Part shown: positions 30,729 to 56,424 of the stretch, one piece after another | How the letters are laid out: each line of letters starts with the position of its first letter | Numbering within the stretch: the first letter of the stretch is position 1 | Source: Halegenticoccus soli | GTDB lineage: Archaea; Halobacteriota; Halobacteria; Halobacteriales; Haloferacaceae | Assembly (NCBI RefSeq): GCF_002844195.1 | Contig: NZ_PEND01000005.1 | Span: 62,001 to 126,000, forward strand | DNA: 64,000 nt | Direction: 5' to 3' | Program-made: the position numbers and the translations under genes | The notes under the pieces: model-generated | What the model was told of the DNA's origin: nothing | Database searches by the model: none | Seen by the model: the letters and a program-made list of their open reading frames with translations, nothing else

Positions 30729-32327
30729 TCAGTCGTCTTCAGCTCTGGGAACACCCTGCATCGAATCCGTCTGCGAGACGGCGCGCTCCTCGCTAAAGAA
30801 GACCGCCTGGATCGTCCTGAACTCCAGGATCATCACCGCGACGGCGATCAGACAGATGACCGCAAACGGACCGCCGGTGATGATCGCCGCCGCCTGCAGC
30901 GCGTTTACACCGCCGACCACCATGAGCAGTGAGGCGAGTGCTCCCATGATGGCGCCCCAGACGACGCGGTTGATCGTGGACGGTTGTTCTGTACCACCGG
31001 TCGTGAGCATCCCGAGTGCGAGCGTCGAGGAGTCGGCCGACGTCACGAAAAACGTCGTCACGAGTAGTAAGAACAGCGCGGTCACGATCGACCCGAACGG
31101 AAGCGCGCCGAGAAGCGGGTAACCGGACCCCGCCTCGCCGTACTGCCCGACGACTCCGAGGATGTTCGCAGCGCCGGTCTTCTGTAGGAAAATGGCGGTC
31201 CCTCCCATCGTGGCGAACCACGGAATCGTGATGCCGGTCGACGCGATGACGCCCGTTCCGACGACCTGTCGCACTGTGCGACCGCGCGAGACGCGCGCAA
31301 TAAACAGGCCGACGAAGGGGGTCCAGGAGAACCACCAGGCCCAGTAAAACACGGTCCACGCGCCGACCCACTCGCCGCCGTTGGTAGTGCCGGTGTACAA
31401 ACTCATCGTGATGAACTGGTTCGCGTACCGACCGACCGCCTCGGTCCCGATGTTCATAATATACACCGTCGGGCCGGTAACGAACACGAACACGGTGACG
31501 AGGGCGAACAGCGCCATGTTGAAGTTCGAGATCCGTCGAATCCCCTTTTCGACGCCGAGCGCGACCGACACCGTGAATGCGATCGTCAGTCCGGTAATCA
31601 CGAGAATCGTTTCCAGGTCGCCGACAGAGATCCCCGTGGTGTACTCGATTCCCGTCAGGAACTGATTGCCGACGAGACCCAGCGTCGTCGCTATCCCGCC
31701 GATGGTCGCGAACACGGCCAGTATGTCGATCACCTTCGCCCAGACGCCGTCGAGGTTGTCTTCTCCGACCAGCGGGAGAATGATCGTCGAAATGCGCAGC
31801 GGTGCGCCCCGCCGGTACGCGAAGAACGCGATCGGAATACCCATGATGACGTAGCCCGTCCACGCCGAAATTCCCCAGTGGAAAAAGGTGTACTGGACGG
31901 CTCCGATCGCCGCCTCGGTGGTCTGCGGCTGCGCATCGAACAGCGACGGAACGGTGTCATAGTGGAAAATCGCCTCCGCGGGGCCCCAGAACACGATGCC
32001 GGCGGCTATCGCCGCCGAGTAAAGCATCGCGAAGTACTCCAGAAAACCGAACTTCGGCTCCTCGTCCGGTTCGCCGAGCTTGATGTTCCCCCACGGCCCG
32101 AATACGAGGAACAGCGCGAACACCACGAGACCAAACATCGACAGGAGGTACAACCACCCGAAGTTACTCCAGATAAAAGCGTTCACCTCGTTCAACCGCT
32201 TTGCGGCCGACGCCGGCCTGAAAACGAACGCGGTAATCGCGCACAGCGTCGCCGCGACTCCGACGCCGAATACGATCGGATCGAGCTCGTCAACGAATCG
32301 TCGTACCATTCCGCCGTCTTCGCTCAT
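30729..32327 (-). CDS. BCCT family betaine/carnitine/choline transporter
   Basis: A 532-residue secondary transporter of the BCCT family, with twelve hydrophobic segments. Landmarks are FGWLYLLSMFGLVVFALFLV, KFGFLEYFAMLYSAAIAAGI, the substrate-site tryptophan segment FYWAWWFSWTPFVGLFIARV followed by SRGRTVRQVV, and FFVTSADSSTLALGML. The family imports quaternary ammonium osmolytes such as glycine betaine with Na+ or H+. The ATG at 32327 is used; another at 32309 is possible. The rest of the region encodes enzymes that could demethylate betaine, so the substrate is probably betaine or a related N-methyl compound. Confidence 0.93.
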   Translation of the reverse strand: MSEDGGMVRRFVDELDPIVFGVGVAATLCAITAFVFRPASAAKRLNEVNAFIWSNFGWLYLLSMFGLVVFALFLVFGPWGNIKLGEPDEEPKFGFLEYFAMLYSAAIAAGIVFWGPAEAIFHYDTVPSLFDAQPQTTEAAIGAVQYTFFHWGISAWTGYVIMGIPIAFFAYRRGAPLRISTIILPLVGEDNLDGVWAKVIDILAVFATIGGIATTLGLVGNQFLTGIEYTTGISVGDLETILVITGLTIAFTVSVALGVEKGIRRISNFNMALFALVTVFVFVTGPTVYIMNIGTEAVGRYANQFITMSLYTGTTNGGEWVGAWTVFYWAWWFSWTPFVGLFIARVSRGRTVRQVVGTGVIASTGITIPWFATMGGTAIFLQKTGAANILGVVGQYGEAGSGYPLLGALPFGSIVTALFLLLVTTFFVTSADSSTLALGMLTTGGTEQPSTINRVVWGAIMGALASLLMVVGGVNALQAAAIITGGPFAVICLIAVAVMILEFRTIQAVFFSEERAVSQTDSMQGVPRAEDD

Positions 32328-33047
32328 ACGAAGGTCGCCCCCCGTCTCGTCGTATCCCGTCGCGGCGCCGAGAGCGAGCGACGCGGGCATTCGGCTTCAG
32401 CGGTTCGTCGTACGCCCGCCGATCGTCGCCCCGATCGCCCTCTGAACGGGGCCGAAAGGAGCTTCGACGCCAGTGGTCCGGCACGATACGCTGTCGACGG
32501 CGGAATCCGAGGCTCTGCTACCGTTCGTGGGAGATCCATCTTGTTCGCCTCTGTACGGACATCATCGATGTGAATTATATATGTTGCCGTTTGCTATCCA
32601 TTAGCGTGGCAGAAATAAACAGAGTGTGGTGATGAGAAGGGTGATCAAACTACGAGAGCTGCCGCCCGAGAGCTCGACGGTGGCGGACAACGCCGCCCGG
32701 TTGAACGGGAAACGGGCTTTTCGCCTGCCTCCCGTGCACGTTTGATCGCCCTGTAATCGGGCTGTAGTCGCCACCGCCGACTGTCCGCTGAATCCCCGTG
32801 GACGGGCGACCGGCGCCGGCCCCCTTTCTCTACCGGTCGAGGGCCGCCGTGCGCTCGCCTCTCAATTCGGACTCCGCGTGTCGTCGCAGTGACTACTTGT
32901 GTCCGCCGCGCGACCGCGGTGGGCGTTCAACCACAACGTGACAGTAATAGGAGTGTATTTGCTTCGGCGGAGGTCCCCCTCCTCGCCCGCGAAAGAAACG
33001 AGGGGGGAACGCGGTCGCGGGCGAGCGCCGGGGCGGTCTCGAACGCG
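32328..33047. other. 720-bp region upstream of the BCCT gene, with a possible 37-residue ORF
   Basis: The part at 32570-32600 (GAATTATATATG) is AT-rich and may hold promoter elements for the transporter. A plus-strand frame at 32632-32745 reads MRRVIKLRELPPESSTVADN and ends NGKRAFRLPPVHV; it could be a 37-residue peptide but has no recognised homologue. GAAACGAGGGGGG at about 32994 repeats the G-string core seen in the ORB-like site upstream of orc. Nothing else is evident. Confidence 0.3.
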
Positions 33048-35319: not shown

Positions 35320-36297
35320 TCAGTCGTCCGCAACGGCCGTTCCGTCCCGTTCGTCGGCGACGAACTCCCCGCGGCTGTCGATCGGGCGACTCGGGTTCAG
35401 CTGGTCCAGTTCGCCGGGAGCGCCGAGCTGCGCGTCGACCTCTCCCGAATTATCGAGCGTCGTGCGACCGCGTTGCACGGCGATGGCGTCGTCGAGGTGG
35501 AGCTGCACCGCCTCCAGGAGGGCTTCGGCTTCGAGCGGCTGGCCGCGGGCCTTGATCTCGTCGACGCTCGCGTCGTCGGGGACGTTGAACGCCCGCTGGG
35601 CGATGATCGGCCCCTGGTCGAGGTCCGTCGTCACGTAGTGGGCGGTGACGCCCGCGATCCGGACGCCCTCCTCCTTGGCCTGCCGGTACGCCGCCGCCCC
35701 CGGGAACGCCGGCAGCAGGCTCGGGTGGACGTTGATGATGCGGCTCTCGTAGCGGAAGACGACCTCCGGCGAGAGAATGCGGATGTAGCGGGCCAGCACG
35801 ACGAGGTCGACGTCGTATTCGGCGAGCAGGTCGAGCAGCTCCTCCTCGTCGGGGTTGCCGTTCTCGTCACCGATGTCGTGGAACGGAACGTCGCGCGCCG
35901 CCGCGAGCGGCCGTAAGTCGTCGTGGTTGCCGATGACGACATCGATGTCCGCCCCGAGTTCGCCGCTGTCCCGGGCATCGAGCAGCGCTTCGAGGCAGTG
36001 GCTCTCCTTGGTGACGAGCACGGCGACGGACTGGTTCTCACAGTCGGAGGGGAACAGAACCTGCACGTCGACGCCGAATTCGTCCCCGAGTTCGTGGAGT
36101 TCCTCCCGAAGCGTTACGCGAGTGATCTCGGCCTCGGACGCGTCGACGCGCATGGTCATCCGGAACGTCTCGTCCCGAACGGCTTGATCGAGGTCCACGA
36201 TGTCGATGCCGCGCTCGAACAGGAGGGACGTAATGTCGGCGATGAGCCCCGAGTCATCGTCGCCGACGACGGTTATCTCCGTCAGTTCGCGGGTCAT
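35320..36297 (-). CDS. purU: formyltetrahydrofolate deformylase
   Basis: A 325-residue PurU-type enzyme. An N-terminal ACT domain (residues about 1-85: EITVVGDDDSGLIADITSLL) is followed by a formyltransferase fold with VVIGNHDDLRPLA, INVHPSLLPAFPGAAAYRQA and VTTDLDQGPIIAQ, which hold the catalytic Asn, His and Asp. It releases formate from 10-formyl-THF and so regenerates free THF. The C-terminus has about 40 residues beyond the standard end (RTTLDNSGEVDAQL and onward). In a region that feeds C1 units into folate, it could keep the THF pool free while discarding formate. Confidence 0.93.
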   Translation of the reverse strand: MTRELTEITVVGDDDSGLIADITSLLFERGIDIVDLDQAVRDETFRMTMRVDASEAEITRVTLREELHELGDEFGVDVQVLFPSDCENQSVAVLVTKESHCLEALLDARDSGELGADIDVVIGNHDDLRPLAAARDVPFHDIGDENGNPDEEELLDLLAEYDVDLVVLARYIRILSPEVVFRYESRIINVHPSLLPAFPGAAAYRQAKEEGVRIAGVTAHYVTTDLDQGPIIAQRAFNVPDDASVDEIKARGQPLEAEALLEAVQLHLDDAIAVQRGRTTLDNSGEVDAQLGAPGELDQLNPSRPIDSRGEFVADERDGTAVADD

Positions 36298-42928: not shown

Positions 42929-45481
42929 TCACCGCACGATCTTGTCGCGACCGGGGTCGAACAGGGGCTCGTCGCGAACCGTCGCGTCGTACGTCTCCCC
43001 TTCGCACTCGATCCGGACCGACGTCCCCGCCTCGGCGTACTGGCTCGGCAAGTACGTGTACGCGATCGATTCGCCGACGCTGTAGCCGTAGTCGGCGGCC
43101 TGTACGTACCCGACCGCGTCGCCGTCCTTGAAGACCGGCCGCCCGCTCAGCACGACGTCGCTCGACTCGTCGAGCGTCAGGCAGGCGATTCGGTCGTCGA
43201 TACCCTTCTCCTTCGCTTCGACCAACGCCTCCTTCCCGACGAAGTCGGTGTCCAGGTCGACCGCGAACGGAAGCCCCGCGGCGAGCGGGTTGACGTCCGT
43301 GTCGATGTCGGTTCCCCACAGCCGGAAGCCCTTCTCGAGCCGCATCGATTCGAGCGCGCCGCCACCCATGGGCCTGAGACCGAGGTCTCGCCCGGCTTCC
43401 CACAGCGTCTCCCAGAGCTTCCGGCCGTATTCCGAGGGTGCCCACAGCTCCCATCCCAGTTCGCCGACGTACGAGACCCGGAGCGCGATTACCGGGACGC
43501 TGCCGACGTAGAGCCGCTTGCAGCTGAAATACGGGAAGCCGCCGTTGGACACGTCGGCGTCGGTGACGCGCTGGAGCAGGAGCCGGGAGTTTGGACCCCA
43601 CAGCCCGACGGTACACTTCGCGGACTCCTCGACCGTCACGGAGACTGTCTCGGGGGCGTGCCGCTCGATCCAGGAGCCGTGAATGCCCGGGGAGTTCCCC
43701 CCGCCGGTCGTCACCATGTACTCGCCCTCGTCGAGACGAGCGACGGTGAGATCGGCCAGGACGTTGCCGCCCTCGTTCAGCATCGTGGTGTACCGAACCT
43801 GCCCGACGTCGATGTCCACGTCGTTAGTGCAGATCCGCTGGAGGAACTCGCCGGCGTCGTCGCCCTCGACCATGATTGAGCTGAAAGTCGTCATGTCGAA
43901 CATGGATACTTCCTCGCGAGTGTGGAGGTGCTCGGCGCCCTCGATGGGAGACCGGTTGACGCCCTGCCAGCCGTCCTGCTCGGGAATCCGCTCCTCGTGC
44001 TTCGAGACGAGATCCACGTTGTGGTCGTACCACTGCGGGGTCTCCCAGCCGCCGCTCTGGTAGAACTCCGCGCCGAGCTCCCGCTGTTGGTGGTAGAACG
44101 GACTCACCCGGAGCCCGCGGTGGTCGTCCGGTTGCCACCGCGGTTCGACGATGCTGTACACCTGCTGGTACCGCAGTCCGCCGCGATCCGTGAAGTACTC
44201 CTTGCTGCCGGCGTGCGGTCCGAAGCGGTTGACGTGAATCGCGCTCGTGTCGACGGGGCCGGAGGGGAGCCGCGGAACGCCGGTTTCCATCCACTCCGCG
44301 AGGATCTTCCCGTAGCCGCCAGAGTGCGTCCACCAGATCGCCAGCCCGGTCCAGAGGCCGTCGATCCGCGCCGTCTCGCCGAGGACGGGCATCCCGTCGG
44401 GGGTGTAGACGAACACTCCGTTCTCGGCGACGCGGAACTCCTTGCCCGCCGTCGCGGGGAGCAGCTCGTCGAACGCTTGCCGCGGCGGCTTGTCGCGGTT
44501 CGGGTGCGTCGGCTTCGTCCAGTGTTTCTCGGTGAACCTGTGGACCGACGCCTGGCTGTCCTCCGCGTTCGTCCCCATCTTGTCCGGATCGACGACCAGC
44601 GGCTCGTGGTTGTACGATCCGAGCCCGTAGCCGTCGCCGTGGGTCCGGAAGTACAGCGAGTTGTCCTGGTCGCGACCGACCGGCCGGTCCGGGGGTTGAG
44701 CCATGTACTCGGTGAGCTGTCGATCGCCGGGGACCTCCAGTCCGGCGGTGGCGTCGCCGATCGTCTCGCCGTCTCCCCGTAGCTCGTCGATCGGCTCGGT
44801 GACCACGTACTGGTGCTCGACGGGCGCGATCGGCAGGTCGAGGCCGACCATCTGACCGGTTTGGTACGCCCAGTTGTTCGTGGCGAGAACGCACCGGTCG
44901 CACTCGATGCTGCCGCGATCGGTTTCGACCGCCCGCACCTCGCCGCCGCTGACGTCGATGTCCGTGACTTCGGTGTGCCCGAAGAAGCGCGCTGGCGACG
45001 TCTCGATGTACCACTTGAGCGCCTCCGCTCCGGCCACCTGACCGTCGGTCGGCGAGTAGTACCCGCCGAGAATCGCGTCCGGGTCGACGAGCGGAAGCCG
45101 TTCGGAGACCTCCTCCGGGTCGAGCAGCTCCGGCCCCGGAAGCCCGTACGACGTCGCCCACTCGACGCGGCGCCGGAGGAAGTCCATCCGCTCTTCCGAT
45201 CGCGCGAGCTCGATGCCGCCAACTTCCGTATACACGCCCGCGTCCTTCAGCAATCGGCTCGTGTAGTGAGCCGTCTTGGTCTGGATCTTCGACGGCGACG
45301 TCTGGAACACGATTCCGGGTGCGTGCGTCGAAGAGCCGCCCGTAACGGGGAGCGGCCCCTGATCGACGACGACGACGTCGTCACATCCGAGCTCCGTCAG
45401 GTGGTACGCGACGCTGCACCCGACAGCGCCGGCGCCGACGATCACCGTATCGGCTCGCGAGGGGAGGCCGTCTGTGCTCAT
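42929..45481 (-). CDS. FAD-dependent dimethylglycine/sarcosine oxidase-like enzyme with GcvT domain (copy 1)
   Basis: An 850-residue fusion. Residues about 10-430 are a DAO-type FAD domain: TVIVGAGAVGCSVAYHLTEL, then GGSSTHAPGIVFQT, where the histidine corresponds to the covalent-flavin histidine of dimethylglycine oxidase/dehydrogenase. About 470-840 are the FAO-like linker plus the folate-binding GcvT domain (GLWGPNSRLLLQ, LRVSYVGELGWELW, and ESMRLEKGFRLWGTDID). Such enzymes demethylate dimethylglycine or sarcosine and hand the methyl carbon to THF as methylene-THF. It lies just downstream of its paralogue and beside ilvA. H2O2 would arise if it is an oxidase, matching KatG in the region. 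Confidence 0.92.
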   Translation of the reverse strand: MSTDGLPSRADTVIVGAGAVGCSVAYHLTELGCDDVVVVDQGPLPVTGGSSTHAPGIVFQTSPSKIQTKTAHYTSRLLKDAGVYTEVGGIELARSEERMDFLRRRVEWATSYGLPGPELLDPEEVSERLPLVDPDAILGGYYSPTDGQVAGAEALKWYIETSPARFFGHTEVTDIDVSGGEVRAVETDRGSIECDRCVLATNNWAYQTGQMVGLDLPIAPVEHQYVVTEPIDELRGDGETIGDATAGLEVPGDRQLTEYMAQPPDRPVGRDQDNSLYFRTHGDGYGLGSYNHEPLVVDPDKMGTNAEDSQASVHRFTEKHWTKPTHPNRDKPPRQAFDELLPATAGKEFRVAENGVFVYTPDGMPVLGETARIDGLWTGLAIWWTHSGGYGKILAEWMETGVPRLPSGPVDTSAIHVNRFGPHAGSKEYFTDRGGLRYQQVYSIVEPRWQPDDHRGLRVSPFYHQQRELGAEFYQSGGWETPQWYDHNVDLVSKHEERIPEQDGWQGVNRSPIEGAEHLHTREEVSMFDMTTFSSIMVEGDDAGEFLQRICTNDVDIDVGQVRYTTMLNEGGNVLADLTVARLDEGEYMVTTGGGNSPGIHGSWIERHAPETVSVTVEESAKCTVGLWGPNSRLLLQRVTDADVSNGGFPYFSCKRLYVGSVPVIALRVSYVGELGWELWAPSEYGRKLWETLWEAGRDLGLRPMGGGALESMRLEKGFRLWGTDIDTDVNPLAAGLPFAVDLDTDFVGKEALVEAKEKGIDDRIACLTLDESSDVVLSGRPVFKDGDAVGYVQAADYGYSVGESIAYTYLPSQYAEAGTSVRIECEGETYDATVRDEPLFDPGRDKIVR

Positions 45482-45789
45482 ATAACACACCCCGATCGTA
45501 CGGTTAGTGTCATAAGTGCAACGGTCACTTAAGTACCAGGGACGTCGCGTAACCCGCGCTGACGGGCGATGTGACTCACAAGGCACATCTTGTGCGCGGA
45601 GCGACGGTCGATCCACAAACGTCCGATCCGATGACGTGTTCGACGAGTTCCTCCTCGGGGGGCGCACGACTCGCTCTCGACGGCAGGTACGGACGCCGGC
45701 GCTTCCATCGAACAGCCGTGACCGCCGGGTATTCACTTCTCGGCGACAAAGAAATCGGGCGGACGTCGCAGGGGCCGCGCGGGGCGGCG

Positions 45790-48390
45790 CTACGAGAGCA
45801 CGCGCTCGCGTTCGGGGTCGAAGAGGGGTTCTTCGCGGACCGTCGCCTCGTAGCGCTCGCCTTCGTGGAGGATTTCGACCTCGACACCGGGCTCGGCGTA
45901 CCCCGGCGGGAGGTACGCGTACGCGATGCACGAGCCGACGGTGTAGCCGTACTCGGCGCTGTGGACGTACCCGAGCGTCTCGTCGCCGTCGAGAACGGGG
46001 CGATCCGCGAAGACGACCGCGTCTTCGTCCCGGAGCGTCAAACAGGCGATCTCGTGGCGGACGTTCTCCCCGTCCGCCGCCTCGGCGACCGCGCTCTTCC
46101 CGATGAAGTCGGTCTCGAGATCGACGGCGAAGCCGAGGCCCGCCTCGTAGGGATTGTGTTCGGTGTGGAGGTCCTCACCCCAGAGCCGGAACCCCTTCTC
46201 GATGCGCAGGGAGTCGAGCGCGCCGTTGCCGTACGGTCTGAGGTCGTATTCCTGTCCGGCTTGCCAGAGGACCTCCCAGAGTCGCTCCCCGTACTCGGCG
46301 GGCGTGTACAGCTCCCAGCCGAGTTCACCCGCGTACGAAACGCGAAGCGCGGTGACCGGGACGTTCTTGACGAAGATCTCCTGGGACGTGAAATACGGGA
46401 ATCCGTCGTTGGAGAGGTCGGCGCGCGTGACCTTCTCGAGCACCTTCCGCGCGTCGGGACCCGTGAGCACGAACGACGACAGGTTCGACGTGACGTCTCG
46501 CACCACCACGTCCGCCGGCGCGTGCTCGCGTATCCACGCGAGGTGGTTCTGCCCGACCTCTCGCCCGGTCGTCAACACCAGGTACCTGTCGTCGTCGAGC
46601 CGCGTGACGGTGATGTCTGCGCGCACGCCGCCCTCCTCGTTGCACATGAGCGTGTAGCGCACCTGCCCGACGTCGATGTCCATGTCGTTTGTGCACAGGT
46701 ACTGTACGAACTCGGCGGCTCCCCGGCCGCTGATCTCCATCTTGTTGAAGGACGTCATGTCGTGGAGGCCGACGGCGTTGCGCACGTGCAGCGCTTCGGC
46801 GCCCTCGATCGGCGACCAGTACTTCGCTTCCCACCCGTCGCGATCGGGGATCTGATCGCCGTACCGCGCCAGGAGATCGGCGTTCGAATCGAACCAGTGG
46901 GCCTCCTCCCAGCCCGCCTCCGCCCACAGTTCGGCGTCGAGCTCCTCGAGCTTGTGATACACCGAGCTGCGACGGATGTCGCGCTGGTGGTCGGTCCAGG
47001 TCCACTTGGGATGGACGATGTTGTAGACGATTCGATACTCCTCGCCGCCGATGTCGCGGGCGAAGTCCCAGCTCCCCTCGTGCGGCTGGAAGCGGTTGAC
47101 GTCGCAGTGGCGCAGGTCGATCGGCCCCTCGGGCAGGCGCGGGACGCCGTTTTCCATCCACTCGGCGAGCGCCTTGCCCGCGCCGCCGGCGTGCGTGACC
47201 CAGATTGCGGCCGCGGTCCAGAGCCCGTCGTACTCCTGAACGGGTCCCATCACGGGCAGGCCGTTGGGCGACTCCGCGAACATCCCGTTGTACCTGTGTT
47301 CGAGTTCCTTCCCCTCGGTCGCCGGGAGCAGTTCGTCGCTGGCCTGACGAGGCGCTTTGTCCGGACGGTCCGGGTGCGTCGCGTTGTTCATGTGGTACTC
47401 GGAGAACTCGTGTACCGACCCCTGCTCGCCGTCCGAATCGTTACCGCCCAGCTCCTGGGGGTCCGGCACGAGCGGCTCGTGGTTGTACGACCCGATGCCG
47501 TACGCGTCTCCGTGCGTCCGGAAGTACATCGCGTTGTCCTGGTCGCGGAGGATCGGCCGGTCGGGCCCGACGAGGAGTCGATCGGCTTTCTCGCCGGAGA
47601 CGTCTCTGTAGTTCTCGTACACCGGATCGTCGGTGACGTCCTTTCGACTCTCGGCCAGCTCTTCGAGTGGTTCGGTGATCGTGTACTGGTGCTCGACCGG
47701 CGTCACCGGGAGGTGGACGCCGAGCTTCTCGCCGAGCTGGCGCGCCCAGATGTTCGTCGCGATCACCACCTCGTCGCACTCGATCTCGCCGTTCTCGGTG
47801 ACGACCGACCGGACCTCGCCGCCCTCGACCTCGACGTTCTCGGTCCTCGTGTGGGGGACGAACGTCGCCCCCCGCTCCGTGGCCGCCTCCGCTAACGCGG
47901 CGCACGCCCTCACGCCCGACACCTGACCGTCGGTCGGCGAGTAGTAACCACCCTCGATGACGTCGCTATCGACGAGCGGGAGATTCTCCGCTACCTCCTC
48001 CGGCGAGAGGATTTGGGGCTCGGGAACGCCCCAGGATTTCCCCCACTCGACGCGACGCTGGAGGAAGTCCATGCGCTCGTCGGACCGAGCGACCTCGATC
48101 CCGCCGGTCTCGTTGTACAGCGGCTCGCCGTCTCCGTCCTCGAACTGGGAGTACAGCCGCCGGCTGTACATCGCGAACTTGGTGAGGACCTTCGGCTCCG
48201 CGGTCTGAAACATGATCCCCGGGGCGTGACTGGACGATCCGCCGGTCGTCGGGAGCGGTCCCTGGTCGACGACGACGACGCCGTCGCGTCCGAGCTCGGT
48301 CAGGTGATACGCTACACTGCACCCGACGATACCGGCGCCGACGATAACGGTGTCCGCTTCGGCCGGCAAGCTGCCGTGTGTGCTCGTCAT
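45790..48390 (-). CDS. FAD-dependent dimethylglycine/sarcosine oxidase-like enzyme with GcvT domain (copy 2)
   Basis: An 866-residue paralogue of the preceding gene, same architecture: TVIVGAGIVGCSVAYHLTEL, GGSSSHAPGIMFQTAEPKVL with the putative flavin-linking histidine, then the GcvT part (FVLTGPDARKVLEKV, LRVSYAGELGWELYTPAEYG, DSLRIEKGFRLWGEDLH). The two copies differ enough (substitutions throughout and short insertions such as EDGDGEPLYNETGG) to suggest different substrates, for example dimethylglycine for one and sarcosine for the other. They share orientation but are 308 nt apart. A TATACTTATC box near 48420 probably drives this gene. Confidence 0.92.
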   Translation of the reverse strand: MTSTHGSLPAEADTVIVGAGIVGCSVAYHLTELGRDGVVVVDQGPLPTTGGSSSHAPGIMFQTAEPKVLTKFAMYSRRLYSQFEDGDGEPLYNETGGIEVARSDERMDFLQRRVEWGKSWGVPEPQILSPEEVAENLPLVDSDVIEGGYYSPTDGQVSGVRACAALAEAATERGATFVPHTRTENVEVEGGEVRSVVTENGEIECDEVVIATNIWARQLGEKLGVHLPVTPVEHQYTITEPLEELAESRKDVTDDPVYENYRDVSGEKADRLLVGPDRPILRDQDNAMYFRTHGDAYGIGSYNHEPLVPDPQELGGNDSDGEQGSVHEFSEYHMNNATHPDRPDKAPRQASDELLPATEGKELEHRYNGMFAESPNGLPVMGPVQEYDGLWTAAAIWVTHAGGAGKALAEWMENGVPRLPEGPIDLRHCDVNRFQPHEGSWDFARDIGGEEYRIVYNIVHPKWTWTDHQRDIRRSSVYHKLEELDAELWAEAGWEEAHWFDSNADLLARYGDQIPDRDGWEAKYWSPIEGAEALHVRNAVGLHDMTSFNKMEISGRGAAEFVQYLCTNDMDIDVGQVRYTLMCNEEGGVRADITVTRLDDDRYLVLTTGREVGQNHLAWIREHAPADVVVRDVTSNLSSFVLTGPDARKVLEKVTRADLSNDGFPYFTSQEIFVKNVPVTALRVSYAGELGWELYTPAEYGERLWEVLWQAGQEYDLRPYGNGALDSLRIEKGFRLWGEDLHTEHNPYEAGLGFAVDLETDFIGKSAVAEAADGENVRHEIACLTLRDEDAVVFADRPVLDGDETLGYVHSAEYGYTVGSCIAYAYLPPGYAEPGVEVEILHEGERYEATVREEPLFDPERERVLS

Positions 48391-48496
48391 TGACAGTGCG
48401 GTGTCCCGTAGGTGTACAAATATACTTATCGCCCGCCTCGACATCAACCACAACGTACCGAATCTGTTACAAGTAGTGGTTCGCGCGATCGGACTG

Positions 48497-48801: not shown

Positions 48802-49965
48802 ATGGGAGTCAGTACCTCGATTGAGATCCTCTCGCAAATACTCGAGCGGTACGAATCGGGTGGGGGCACGGTCCACCAGGTCGAGGCGACGCTCTCCGAG
48901 CGGGGGAAGAGAGACGGACTGAGCGTCACGGTCGACGTCGCCGTGCCGCTGTGCTCGGCCGCGAACGACCGCTCGGAACCCGACGCGTCGCCCGTGACGG
49001 CGGTGCTCGGAGACGGCGGCGAGTTACGGCTCGAGTTCCCGCCGTCGATCGTGCCGTCGATGGACGAGTGCGCTCCTGAGAGTGTTTCGACCGCCAGAGA
49101 GGACGTCCGCGTCGCCGCCGACGGGACTATCCTCGTGACGTTCGCTCTCGGTGTGGATGCGGACGCGGAGCCAGAGGAGGTCGCCGTCTCGACCTCGACG
49201 CCTCTCGAAGAGCCGAACGAGGTAGCGACGAGCGTGGGCGAGGACGAGCGGGGATCCGCCGCGGGATCGGAGAGCGGCACCGAGACGGAAAGCGAGGCGG
49301 ATCCCGGGGCCGAGACCGAGAGTGCGCTCGAGGCCGCGCGAAACGAGGACCTGCCGCCCTACGAAGACGTCGAGTACCTCCGGTGCCTGTACGATTCGTT
49401 CGACACGTTCACGGCGATGGCCGACGCGCTCGAAATGGACGTCACCTCGGAGACCGTCCGTCGGTACATGATCGACGCCGGAGTCCACGAGCCCGCGTCC
49501 TACAACACGACCGCCGGGGGCGAGACGGAGGACGCGGTCGACGACGACCCGGCAGCGATAGAAGCGACCGACGCGCCCGGCGAGGTGGAAGAAGAGACGC
49601 TCTCCCCAGACCCGCCAACGGACCCGACCGAAAGAACGGCGCCGGCCCTCGACCGAGCGTCGGCGGGGGAGGCGAACGGGCCGAGCGAGCACGTTTCGAG
49701 AAAACAGCTCGTCACCGACGGCATCGGCCTGCCCGACGGCGTCGAGCTCGAAGAGCTGATCGACGCCATCGCGTCGTCGCTGACGCTGTACGACGTCCAC
49801 CAGCAGCTGGATCTCGATCGCGGACGCACCCGCGAACTGCTGGAACGGCTCAACCTGATCGACCTGGTCGTGAAGCGGGTTTACAGCGCGGACGACCCCG
49901 AGAGACGACCGTCGCGGGACGAAATCGTGGACCGAATCCGCGACAGCGTCGCCACCGAGCGGTGA
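48802..49965 (+). CDS. helix-turn-helix protein of unknown function
   Basis: A 387-residue acidic haloarchaeal protein, not recognised as a named family. It appears modular: an N-terminal globular part (1-115, ISIEILSQILERYESGGG-like start), a Ser/Glu/Thr-rich linker (about 130-180), a helix-turn-helix-like unit (YLRCLYDSFDTFTAMADALE, then VTSETVRRYMIDAGVHEP), a second acidic linker, and a C-terminal second HTH-like unit (LTLYDVHQQLDLDRGRTREL). Two DNA-binding-like units suggest a regulator or chromosome-associated protein. It lies between the tnpB scar and the first Rieske gene, on the same strand as the latter. Confidence 0.65.
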   Translation: MGVSTSIEILSQILERYESGGGTVHQVEATLSERGKRDGLSVTVDVAVPLCSAANDRSEPDASPVTAVLGDGGELRLEFPPSIVPSMDECAPESVSTAREDVRVAADGTILVTFALGVDADAEPEEVAVSTSTPLEEPNEVATSVGEDERGSAAGSESGTETESEADPGAETESALEAARNEDLPPYEDVEYLRCLYDSFDTFTAMADALEMDVTSETVRRYMIDAGVHEPASYNTTAGGETEDAVDDDPAAIEATDAPGEVEEETLSPDPPTDPTERTAPALDRASAGEANGPSEHVSRKQLVTDGIGLPDGVELEELIDAIASSLTLYDVHQQLDLDRGRTRELLERLNLIDLVVKRVYSADDPERRPSRDEIVDRIRDSVATER

Positions 49966-50265
49966 CGCCGCGACCCCGTCCGAGCCGACGCGATGGTTGG
50001 GCAGAACGGCCGACTCGTTCTCGTCCGCTGTTTTCTCCCTCTCACCTGGGTGAAACGCGATCGAACGGGCCGAAGGTTCGATCCATCGTTAGCGTTCGCG
50101 CGTGGGCGTCGGTTCGCCCGCTGGCGCGACGCTCTCCTCTCTCGGAATCGGCGTTCGACCGCGCGTACGGCGCCGAGTTCGCGGGCGCCGTATTCTACCC
50201 GGTTTATATTGATGTTCAATATCACTGGTGAACGGTTTTAGTAACCGCTCCGGTGTTGGTACTAT
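49966..50265. promoter_or_regulatory. promoter region of Rieske gene 1, with block shared with Rieske gene 2
   Basis: The last 65 bp before the ATG at 50266 hold TTTATATTGATGTTCAATATC plus ACTGGTGAAC at about 50203-50233, then TTTTAGTAA at 50236-50244 as a TATA-like box about 23-28 nt before the start. The same order and most of the bases recur before the paralogue at 52246. The upstream part (49966-50190) shows nothing else. Confidence 0.5.
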
Positions 50266-51399
50266 ATGACACAGTGGGACGACTCACAGACGGAACACGT
50301 GAGTGACGATATCACGGACGAATCGAACGCGCTGCCGGCGCGGTACTTCACGGAGCCGGACGTCTTCGAGATGGAAAAGGAGAAAGTGTTCGGCCGGTAC
50401 TGGGTCTACGCCGGCCACGCCAACGCCATCAAAGAACCGGGTCAGTACTTCACGAGGGACGTCGGCAATCGCAAGCTGATCATCGTGCGCGGTCACGACG
50501 GCCGGCCCAAGGCGTTCGACAACGTCTGCGCCCACCGGGGATCCAAAATGGTGGAGGACACGCCGATGACCGACCCGGGCGACGCGAGCCGGATCCAGTG
50601 TCCGTACCACCTCTGGACGTACGATCTCGACGGAACCCTCAGGAGTACGCCGCGGAGCTTCGAGGAGGCGAGCTTGAATCCGGATCTCGAGGACGAGGAC
50701 GTCCGAGAGCTCGACCCCGAAGAGAACGCCCTGAACGCCGTCAACGTCGACACGATCGGCCCGTTCATCTTCGTCAACCTGAGCGACGATCCCATGCCGC
50801 TCGAAGAACAGGCCGGCGAAATGAAAGACAGGCTCGAAGCGCTGCCGCTCGGCGAGTACGAGCACGCCTGCCGGATCGTCTCGGAGGTCGAGTGCAACTG
50901 GAAGGTGTTCGCCAGCAACTACTCCGAGTGCGACCACTGCCAATCTAACCACCAAGATTGGATCGAGGGCATTCAGCTCGACGAGTCGGAGCTGGAAGTG
51001 AACGATTACCACTGGGTGCTCCACTACACCCACGAGGAAGACGTCGACGACGAGCTGCGCATCCACGATGAACACGAAGCGCAGTTCCACTACCTGTGGC
51101 CGAACTTCACGGTCAACATGTACGGGACCGCCGACGGCTACGGCACCTACGTCATCGACCCCATCGACACCGACCGCTTCCAGCTCATCGCCGACTACTA
51201 CTTCGAGGACGCCGACCTCTCCGACGAAGAGGAGGAGTTCGTCCGCACCAGCCGGCAACTCCAGGAGGAGGACTTCGAACTGGTCGAACGTCAGTGGGAG
51301 GGGCTGAAAACCGGGGCATTGGCACAGGCGCAGCTCGGGCCGAACGAACACACCGTCCACAGGTTCCACCGGCTCGCCCAGGAGGCCTACAACTCGTGA
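50266..51399 (+). CDS. Rieske-type aromatic/N-methyl oxygenase alpha subunit
   Basis: A 377-residue Rieske non-heme iron oxygenase. The [2Fe-2S] ligands are Cys88 and His90 in NVCAHRGSK and Cys112 and His115 in IQCPYHLWTYD. The catalytic iron histidines are His224 and His229 in NYSECDHCQSNHQDW. Relatives such as GbcA demethylate glycine betaine, and others act on carnitine or stachydrine, with release of formaldehyde and use of an electron-transfer partner. Such a reductase (GbcB-like) is not in the window. With BCCT and dimethylglycine-oxidase-like genes nearby, glycine betaine is the most probable substrate, by context. Confidence 0.92.
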   Translation: MTQWDDSQTEHVSDDITDESNALPARYFTEPDVFEMEKEKVFGRYWVYAGHANAIKEPGQYFTRDVGNRKLIIVRGHDGRPKAFDNVCAHRGSKMVEDTPMTDPGDASRIQCPYHLWTYDLDGTLRSTPRSFEEASLNPDLEDEDVRELDPEENALNAVNVDTIGPFIFVNLSDDPMPLEEQAGEMKDRLEALPLGEYEHACRIVSEVECNWKVFASNYSECDHCQSNHQDWIEGIQLDESELEVNDYHWVLHYTHEEDVDDELRIHDEHEAQFHYLWPNFTVNMYGTADGYGTYVIDPIDTDRFQLIADYYFEDADLSDEEEEFVRTSRQLQEEDFELVERQWEGLKTGALAQAQLGPNEHTVHRFHRLAQEAYNS

Positions 51400-51535: not shown

Positions 51536-51895
51536 ATGAGCACGCAAGAGAAGGCGTCGTACGTTGCGGTCTGTCCGGAGTGTGACGAAAGAAAGCAAAC
51601 GGAGACCCCGAACGAGGTCGTCGAGTTCTACCGCCGACACCACCGCGTGACGGGACACGACGTGGACCTAGAGCGCGCACGGCCGGATCTGGACGAGGAC
51701 GTGACGGGCGACGATCTCAAAAGCGTCGTCCGGCACCTCCTGGAACAGTACCCGAACGGCGTCCCGATCGGCGTCATCGTGGCGGTGATGAACGAACGCG
51801 GCCTGTCGATCGGTGAGACGCTGGACGAGATCCACGAGATACGGATGGGCGGCGGTCTGTACGAACCCCGAGACGATCACCTGGGTGCGTTCTAG
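51536..51895 (+). CDS. small zinc-motif/winged-helix protein
   Basis: A 119-residue protein. The N-terminus holds a CPEC motif (YVAVCPECDERKQTE), a zinc-ribbon-like half site, with HHRVTGHD as possible further ligands. The C-terminal half (LKSVVRHLLEQYPNGVPIGV, then YEPRDDHLGAF) resembles the winged-helix tail found at the end of archaeal MCM helicases and in related small haloarchaeal proteins. A regulatory, DNA-binding role is inference. It lies 136 nt behind Rieske gene 1 and ahead of Rieske gene 2 on the same strand. Confidence 0.7.
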   Translation: MSTQEKASYVAVCPECDERKQTETPNEVVEFYRRHHRVTGHDVDLERARPDLDEDVTGDDLKSVVRHLLEQYPNGVPIGVIVAVMNERGLSIGETLDEIHEIRMGGGLYEPRDDHLGAF

Positions 51896-52245
51896 CGCTG
51901 TCGACCCGCCGCTCAGCGCTACGCGTGACCGGACAGTTCGCCCGTCAGCACACTGACCACGACGGCTACCCGGGAAGGCAGACTCGCAGCGCCGGTTGCA
52001 GGCGTCGTCCCCTCGAAAGCCACCGCCTGCTGGTGGATGTAGCTATAATCACTTCTATTCGATTCTCTTGGAAAGATTCGGATTGATGACAATTGACTAT
52101 CCGGCCTTGCCATCGGCGGTGAACTATGTAGGCGCTGTTGGATTCATCTCACGCCTTCAGGCGCGGGTATTCTCCTCGCGTTTTATAATGACGTTCTATA
52201 TCACTGGTTAACTCTTTTTTGAAACCGCCTCAATGATGCTATTGT
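51896..52245. promoter_or_regulatory. region upstream of Rieske gene 2, with IS-type hairpin and shared promoter block
   Basis: At about 52147-52175 the sequence CTCACGCCTTCAGGCGCGGG forms a hairpin of the kind found at ends of IS200/IS605-type elements in haloarchaea. It is followed at 52181-52212 by TTTTATAATGACGTTCTATA and TCACTGGTTAAC, which match the block before Rieske gene 1, and then by a TTTTTTGAAACC stretch. The paralogue's promoter is thus preserved next to an IS scar. 51896-52140 shows nothing recognisable. Confidence 0.5.
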
Positions 52246-53256
52246 ATGACACAGTGGAACGACGCGCAGGTGAAGCCCGTTAGCCCAGACATCACGGACA
52301 GATCGAACGCGCTGCCGGCGCGGTACTTCAGGGAGCCGGACGTCTTCGAGATGGAAAAGGAGAAAGTGTTCAGCCGGTACTGGGTCTACGCCGGCCACGC
52401 TAACGCCATCAAAGAACCGGGTCAGTCCTTCACGCGGACCGTTGGCGGCCGCGACCTGATCGTCGTCCGAGACGACGAGAACGAAGTGAGAGCCTTCAAC
52501 AACTTCTCGGCGCGCGACGGGGCGAAAGTCGTAGACGACGCACCGATGACCGATCCCGAGAGCGTCGACACCGGCGAACTCGACGACTTGGACGCCGTCA
52601 GCGTCGACACGATCGGCCCGTTCATCTTCGTCAACCTGAGCGACGATCCCATGCCGCTCGAAGAACAAGCCGGCGAGATGAAAGACAGGCTCGAAGCGCT
52701 GCCGCTCGCCGAGTACGAGCACGCCTGCCGAATCGTCTCGGAGGTCGAGTGCAACTGGAAGGTGTTCGCCAGCAACTACTCCGAGTGCGACCACTGCCAG
52801 GCCAATCACCAGGACTGGATCAAGGGTATCTCGCTGAACGAGTCCGAACTCGAGGTGAACGACTACCACTGGGTGCTCCACTACACCCACGAGGAGGACG
52901 TCGACGACGAACTACGTATTCACGAGGAGCACGAGGCGCAGTTCCACTACCTATGGCCGAACTTCACGGTCAACATGTACGGGACCGCCGACGGCTACGG
53001 CACCTACGTCATCGACCCGATCGACACCGGCCGCTTCCAGCTCATCGCCGACTACTACTTCGAGGACGCCGACCTCTCCGACGAAGAGGAGGAGTTCGTC
53101 CGCACCAGCCGGCAACTCCAGGAGGAGGACTTCGAACTGGTCGAACGCCAGTGGGAGGGGCTGAAAACCGGGGCATTGGCACAGGCGCAGCTCGGGCCGA
53201 ACGAACACACCGTCCACAAGTTCCACCTGCTCGCCCAGGAAGCCTACAACTCCTAA
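52246..53256 (+). CDS. Rieske oxygenase paralogue lacking the [2Fe-2S] site
   Basis: A 336-residue paralogue of the gene at 50266. Residues 1-60 and the whole C-terminal catalytic domain are nearly identical (NYSECDHCQANHQDW, TVNMYGTADGYGTYVIDP, EEEFVRTSRQLQEEDFEL), so iron-binding histidines are kept at about 183 and 188. The Rieske domain is dismantled: Cys88 and His90 become Ser and Arg (NFSARDGAK), and the segment with the second Cys-His pair and following residues is missing as an in-frame gap of 41 residues. There is no stop or frameshift, so it is expressed-looking. It may act with a Rieske domain from another subunit, as the Rieske-less NdmC does with NdmD, or be a structural or decayed partner. 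Confidence 0.9.
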   Translation: MTQWNDAQVKPVSPDITDRSNALPARYFREPDVFEMEKEKVFSRYWVYAGHANAIKEPGQSFTRTVGGRDLIVVRDDENEVRAFNNFSARDGAKVVDDAPMTDPESVDTGELDDLDAVSVDTIGPFIFVNLSDDPMPLEEQAGEMKDRLEALPLAEYEHACRIVSEVECNWKVFASNYSECDHCQANHQDWIKGISLNESELEVNDYHWVLHYTHEEDVDDELRIHEEHEAQFHYLWPNFTVNMYGTADGYGTYVIDPIDTGRFQLIADYYFEDADLSDEEEEFVRTSRQLQEEDFELVERQWEGLKTGALAQAQLGPNEHTVHKFHLLAQEAYNS

Positions 53257-53295: not shown

Positions 53296-53841
53296 TAATT
53301 CAAGCAGGGAGTCCCGGCCTTTAGGCCGGGCGGGAATGCGACCCGTGTCTCGAAAGCGCTCGTCCACGAGGCGATAACACACACCTGTTCTCCCATCGCC
53401 TTTGAGGACCTCACCGATATTCGAGAACGGATGCCCGGCGTGAAAAAGTTCCACGTATGGGCGTTCAAGCAGCTCTGTGAGTACGTCGAGTACAAAGCCG
53501 CCGAGTTCGGGATTCGGACGGTACAAGTCGACCCGGCGTACACGAGTCAACGGTGTTCGTGCTGTGGAACGACCCTCCGAGAACATCGGCCTTCTCAGGC
53601 CGAGTTCCTGTGCCGGAAGTGTGGGTATGAGGTACACGCTGACTACAACGCAGCGAAGAATAGTGCGACGAAGTATGTCCGGGCGGGCCAAAAGCGTCCG
53701 TCCGGACGGGTGAACCGTCAACTCGCCCTGAAGTCGGGAACGCTGAACGGGAATGGGGGGGTTTTTCCCTGCCAACGCAGACGCGTAGGACAGACCGGGA
53801 GTTCACCGACAAGCCCCGGCGTTTACGCCGGGGTAGTTGAC
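53296..53841 (+). pseudogene. IS1341-type tnpB remnant, internally deleted
   Basis: An IS-end hairpin (CCCGGCCTTTAGGCCGGG, about 53308-53325) is joined directly to the last third of a TnpB: IAFEDLTDIRERMPG, KKFHVWAFKQLCEYVEYKAA, VDPAYTSQRCSCCG and CRKCGYEVHADYNAAKNSA with the zinc-finger cysteines. The reading breaks near 53755 at a G/T-rich run and the usual tail is out of frame (EFTDKPRRLRRGS). A second hairpin CCCCGGCGTTTACGCCGGGG (53814-53833) marks the other end. The RuvC N-part is gone, so it cannot make active nuclease. It lies between Rieske gene 2 and katG. Confidence 0.75.

Positions 53842-53941: not shown

Positions 53942-56424
<2,483 letters not shown>

Follow-up and report, generated by a model that had tools for sequence, protein, structure and literature searches.

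A Rieske-less subunit conserved beside its Rieske-bearing paralogue in haloarchaea, with a predicted role in a heteromeric N-demethylase

The window analysed here, a 64-kb stretch of DNA, belongs to the haloarchaeon Halegenticoccus soli (genome G000, 4.6 Mb) and contains two paralogous genes, hereafter L and S, which encode proteins of 377 and 336 amino acids, respectively, in uninterrupted reading frames. The features of the locus are as follows:

30729-32390, minus strand: BCCT betaine/carnitine/choline transporter (neighbourhood annotation)
35320-36297, minus strand: formyl-transferase/PurU-like protein of C1 metabolism (neighbourhood annotation)
42935-45502, minus strand: second FAD oxidoreductase-GcvT fusion, 55% identical to the first (synteny)
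45790-48453, minus strand: first FAD oxidoreductase-GcvT fusion, dimethylglycine/sarcosine dehydrogenase type, divergent neighbour (domains, synteny)
48802-49965, plus strand: 387-aa protein upstream of L, with no Pfam or NCBIfam match
50204-50233, plus strand: TATA/operator-like block upstream of L (motif search)
50266-51399, plus strand: L, complete Rieske oxygenase alpha-type protein with Rieske ligands C88/H90/C112/H115 and iron site E221/H224/H229/D336 (Pfam, alignment)
51536-51895, plus strand: 119-aa putative zinc-binding protein of the HVO_B0008 type, between L and S (Pfam, synteny)
52183-52212, plus strand: the same 30-base block upstream of S (motif search)
52246-53256, plus strand: S, Rieske-less alpha-type subunit, paralogue of L (open reading frame, alignment, Pfam, orthologues)
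52507-52515, plus strand: Ser88-Ala-Arg90 in S, at the first Rieske ligand pair, Cys88-Ala-His90, of L (alignment)
52558-52602, plus strand: junction region of S, shorter by 41 codons, at the place of the L loop that binds the cluster through Cys112/His115 (alignment)
52783-52809, plus strand: iron site kept in S, with Glu180 (bridging type), Cys181, His183, Cys184 and His188 (alignment to CntA Glu205/His208/His213)
53128-53130, plus strand: Asp295 of S, at the position of the CntA carboxylate iron ligand (alignment)

An earlier note on this DNA had described S as an uninterrupted gene in which Cys88 and His90 are replaced by Ser and Arg, and the alignment and the reading frame bear out both points. 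Its 41-residue in-frame gap removing the second ligand pair stands as a net difference of 41 codons with loss of Cys112 and His115, but not as one clean block, since the aligner places the missing codons as 37 + 4 and S has diverged from L around the junction too. Likewise, the remainder, said to be nearly identical, is so over the catalytic half (94.6% identity, residues 150-377), but reaches only 71% over residues 1-105. Pfam recognises both the Rieske domain (63 bits) and the catalytic domain (70 bits) in L; the catalytic domain of S scores 67 bits, while its Rieske domain gives only a half match at the cut-off (20.5 bits). The E-x2-H-x4-H motif of CntA lines up with E180/H183/H188 of S, and two features next to the iron site that define Group V of the Rieske oxygenases, a bridging Glu and a Cys-x-x-Cys pair (PMC7948474, PMC10952381), are present in S as E180, C181 and C184. 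Both proteins score under the 670 cut-off of the NCBIfam GbcA equivalog (L 141 bits, S 85 bits), and on these scores are best classed as relatives of GbcA, not as certified GbcA. Caution is needed in using existing annotation, in which genes of the S and L type carry the label 'SRPBCC family protein' and nothing more.

The promoter block, which the note had seen to be kept, follows the pattern TTATAnTGAnGTTCnATATCACTGGTKAAC; it has exactly two matches in the window and none in shuffled sequences, and it is recognisable before S and L at the other examined loci, including those of the split clade described below. The typical gene order is [FAD-GcvT fusions]-387-aa protein-L-119-aa HVO_B0008-type protein-S. 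The 387-aa protein is conserved (40-56% identity) upstream of L at most S-bearing loci, a position that makes it a candidate regulator, and the 119-aa gene follows L at nearly all haloarchaeal loci examined, whether S is present or not, and possibly encodes an accessory factor of the oxygenase. Genes for an aldehyde:ferredoxin oxidoreductase and a PLP enzyme also lie near in the window, and related loci contain formaldehyde dehydrogenase, formate dehydrogenase and folate enzymes. This context fits a stepwise demethylation of glycine betaine, which, judging from the neighbours and from distant similarity, is the most likely substrate. Directly downstream of S (53431-53680) lies a C-terminal remnant (TNB domain) of a TnpB-type (IS200/IS605) RNA-guided nuclease, and no full-length TnpB was seen there; a catalase-peroxidase (KatG-type) gene adjoins the oxygenase cluster on the opposite strand (53942-56116).

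A search of haloarchaeal genomes for a Rieske-less form accompanied by a Rieske-bearing copy, as the note had proposed, showed that 21 different genomes, spread over at least four families, encode the 336-aa form; the note's refuting case, occurrence in one strain with relaxed selection, does not hold. It occurs in Haloferacaceae (the window species, Haloprofundus, Halogranum), in Natrialbaceae (Natronococcus, Natrinema, Haloterrigena, Natronorubrum, Halostagnicola, Natronolimnohabitans), and in Haladaptatus and Halocatena; several copies are borne on large plasmids, and the orthologues, where measured, share 76-82% identity with the S of the window. Because the gap recurs in 21 genomes and the window sequence contains no N, the assembly error that the note had allowed for is ruled out. 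Cys88, Cys112 and His115 are absent from S in all 21 genomes and His90 in 20 of them, whereas E221/C222/H224/C225/H229/D336 (L numbering) are kept in every one, with H183, H188 and D295 invariant in S. Intact L proteins keep both the Rieske and the iron ligand sets (16/16). Each S genome also has a Rieske-bearing partner, mostly directly upstream of S, which is intact L in 15 genomes and a form without the iron site, L', in six. L is frequently found without S, and a second L branch is common in haloarchaea lacking S. The S-type L of Haloarcula amylovorans (L063; 83% identical to the window L) has neither S nor the 119-aa gene in its available flank, possibly through secondary loss. In draft assemblies of Haloterrigena salina JCM 13891 and Natrinema versiforme JCM 10478, S and L genes contain joins made by a single N as well as duplicated ends (L079, L092, L095, L054), probably because the near-identical catalytic halves confused assembly; three copies from Haloterrigena salina JCM 13891 (L079, L092, L095), considered as chimeric variants, were excluded, as their breaks coincide with such joins.

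The six L' genomes are of the Natronococcus type (Natronococcus sp. A-GB1 and A-GB7, N. amylolyticus, N. jeotgali, a Natrialbaceae MAG, and G304). Their L' proteins keep the Rieske ligands C88/H90/C112/H115 (6/6) and lack both iron histidines (6/6), with the Asp kept in two; in place of the NYSECDHCQANH iron motif they have unrelated sequence, e.g., GASLE----RLRRGD. Accordingly graded Pfam scores are found, with 66-70 bits for the Rieske domain and 22-36 bits for the catalytic domain of L', and 16-21 and 71-73 bits, respectively, for three S proteins of split genomes. Whole-genome searches with L revealed no intact orthologue in five of the split genomes, and a family search found no second homologue at E 1e-60 in G304, whose locus was also inspected. 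These six genomes show reciprocal loss, with one Rieske-only and one iron-only chain, S being the one member of each pair that still has an iron site; the window genome, with its intact L, does not show such loss. Since the six L' proteins form one clade in the tree, they represent one evolutionary event, not six.

The note had also suggested separate dN/dS estimates for the N- and C-terminal parts, and these were obtained by the Nei-Gojobori method with codon bootstrap from four close split genomes, so that the values are approximate. They give, for S, 0.22 (0.09-0.49) in the Rieske remnant versus 0.07 (0.04-0.12) in the catalytic part, and, for L', 0.05 (0.01-0.14) in the Rieske part versus 0.43 (0.32-0.59) in the catalytic part; for L', the two bootstrap intervals do not overlap. 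The constraint is mirror-imaged, lying in the catalytic half of S and in the Rieske half of L'. Close pairs outside the split clade show similar constraint on the catalytic domains of S (0.055) and L (0.037).

The two halves of S differ in their history. Within genomes that have intact L, identity between S and L is 89-98% over the catalytic half but 61-75% over the N part. S is monophyletic in the N-part tree (support 98), while most S proteins pair with the L of their own genome in the catalytic-half tree, and S monophyly is rejected for the catalytic part (dlnL 757, p 2e-56 for DNA; p 0.004 for protein). Independent recent duplications of S are ruled out, because S forms one N-part clade with the same gap throughout; its sequences point to a single origin. 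The natural reading of these patterns is repeated gene conversion between the catalytic halves of the two paralogues, and efficient gene conversion has been reported for Haloferax volcanii (PMC8223754, PMC11276520). The Rieske-less N part was overwritten in none of the 21 genomes, which suggests selection favouring the cluster-less state, although conversion may also be blocked by the divergence and the gap as such. The wider substrate range that had been proposed for mixed oligomers is unsupported, given how alike conversion keeps the catalytic halves where L is intact.

AlphaFold2 models, made of single chains from shallow alignments, show for S (pLDDT 70, but largely below 50 at residues 179-196, the iron-site region) the catalytic fold and, at the former Rieske domain, a set of strands from which the cluster loop is missing, and for L' of A-GB1 (pLDDT 68) a catalytic fold from which the ligands are absent. 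For both models, the best PDB match is CntA. This enzyme is a head-to-tail trimer in which the metal sites lie 44 A apart within a chain and 12.2 A apart between subunits, and are bridged by the essential Glu205 (PMC7948474); given so short an inter-subunit distance, a subunit without a cluster can work if its neighbour has one. We propose that a haloarchaeal Rieske N-demethylase of quaternary amines has S as its catalytic, alpha'-type subunit, and that S has shed its cluster-binding loop and retained the mononuclear iron site. S and L would assemble head-to-tail, and electrons would pass from the [2Fe-2S] cluster of L across the interface to the bridging glutamate of S and on to its iron, with S on the acceptor side and L or L' on the donor side. 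Since electron transfer in Rieske oxygenases runs between adjacent subunits, such a heteromeric enzyme, with the cluster given by L or L' and the catalytic iron by S, is the best explanation, and we consider it probable, the assembly and the direction of electron flow being inferred. The idea in the earlier note that S may use the cluster of its paralogue in mixed oligomers is strongly supported at this level by its occurrence in 21 genomes and by the loss of the partner's iron site in six. L is complete in most species, where the S/L pair would be partly redundant and the need for S is not obvious. In the Natronococcus clade, L' alone would provide the cluster and S alone the iron, and the two probably work only together; a three-member ring of S and L' would contain one competent Rieske-to-iron junction, and hence a single active site per trimer.

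Of the alternatives, the one that survives best, though we think it unlikely, is that S forms a catalytic homotrimer on which L' (or L) docks transiently as a separate Rieske electron carrier. The complete Rieske domain of L' and its less constrained catalytic domain (omega about 0.4) would agree with this; yet the degenerate domain is nearly full-length with a CntA-like fold in the model, its omega of 0.43 (CI 0.32-0.59) is not neutral, as expected if ring assembly needs the domain, and intact L elsewhere is an ordinary oxygenase subunit. Pseudo-subunits are common, and beside intact L the addition of S takes away Rieske-to-iron junctions, so that S could have a structural or regulatory role without being catalytic, reducing how many active sites a trimer has. 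The structural role, also raised in the earlier note, is nevertheless disfavoured and in our judgement improbable: S invariably keeps its iron triad together with the bridging Glu and the Cys pair, its catalytic dN/dS is about as low as that of L in intact-L species, and in six species S alone of the pair bears the iron site. Slightly less probable still is an unrelated donor, such as a reductase or a ferredoxin. Here the precedent is NdmC of the NdmCDE caffeine N7-demethylase complex, which has no Rieske cluster and uses that on its reductase, NdmD (PMC4408171), in line with the note's remark on the source of its electrons, and flavin reductase-type domains are located elsewhere in the haloarchaeal genomes. 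However, the examined flanks of S yielded no recognisable reductase and no second Rieske protein; the conserved Rieske protein there is L or L', and the Rieske domain of L' is tightly constrained although L' itself lacks an iron site that it could supply. That S is a decaying duplicate, as its ligand loss and gap might imply, has next to no chance of being true, in keeping with the note's argument against simple decay, and is refuted by conservation across families: 20 of the 21 genomes have an S of the same length, the remaining one being explained by an artefact of a draft assembly, and S has no stop codon in any of them, is under strong purifying selection and has a conserved promoter.

The heteromeric N-demethylase that we favour has both kin and precedents. 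CntA and GbcA (Group V) share with S the fold and the iron site with its bridging Glu and Cys-x-x-Cys pair, but their known members hold both metal sites in each chain, whereas S has only the iron and L' only the Rieske site. NdmC is likewise an iron-bearing subunit that borrows electrons from another chain, and S is predicted to be of the same type, without a shared family being implied; its donor, unlike the reductase NdmD, would be a paralogous alpha-type subunit subject to recurrent gene conversion. The chlorophyllide a oxygenase of the alga Micromonas differs from S/L' in being a eukaryotic chlorophyll enzyme of another subfamily with another substrate. Work attributed to Kunugi in 2013 reportedly placed its Rieske site on one chain and its iron site on the other, and we know of no intermediate series with an intact partner for this enzyme. 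The enzyme has been described as one Rieske oxygenase on two polypeptide chains (PMC9615114). Two-chain and Rieske-less oxygenases thus have precedents; the haloarchaeal case differs by its subfamily, by the proposed paralogue donor combined with gene conversion, and by the preserved intermediates, and an open-access literature search found no prior report of a Rieske-less subunit in haloarchaea.

In this system, a prokaryote offers a naturally occurring test of how electrons pass between the subunits of Rieske oxygenases, with the metal sites on separate gene products, each of which can be altered alone. We regard it as evenly balanced whether haloarchaea keep the full series, from homotrimer through a gene-converted mixed ring to an obligate reciprocal pair with one active site per trimer. 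Such a series, with ancestral, intermediate and final states in living species, would show how a homo-oligomer may turn into an obligate hetero-oligomer through complementary loss.
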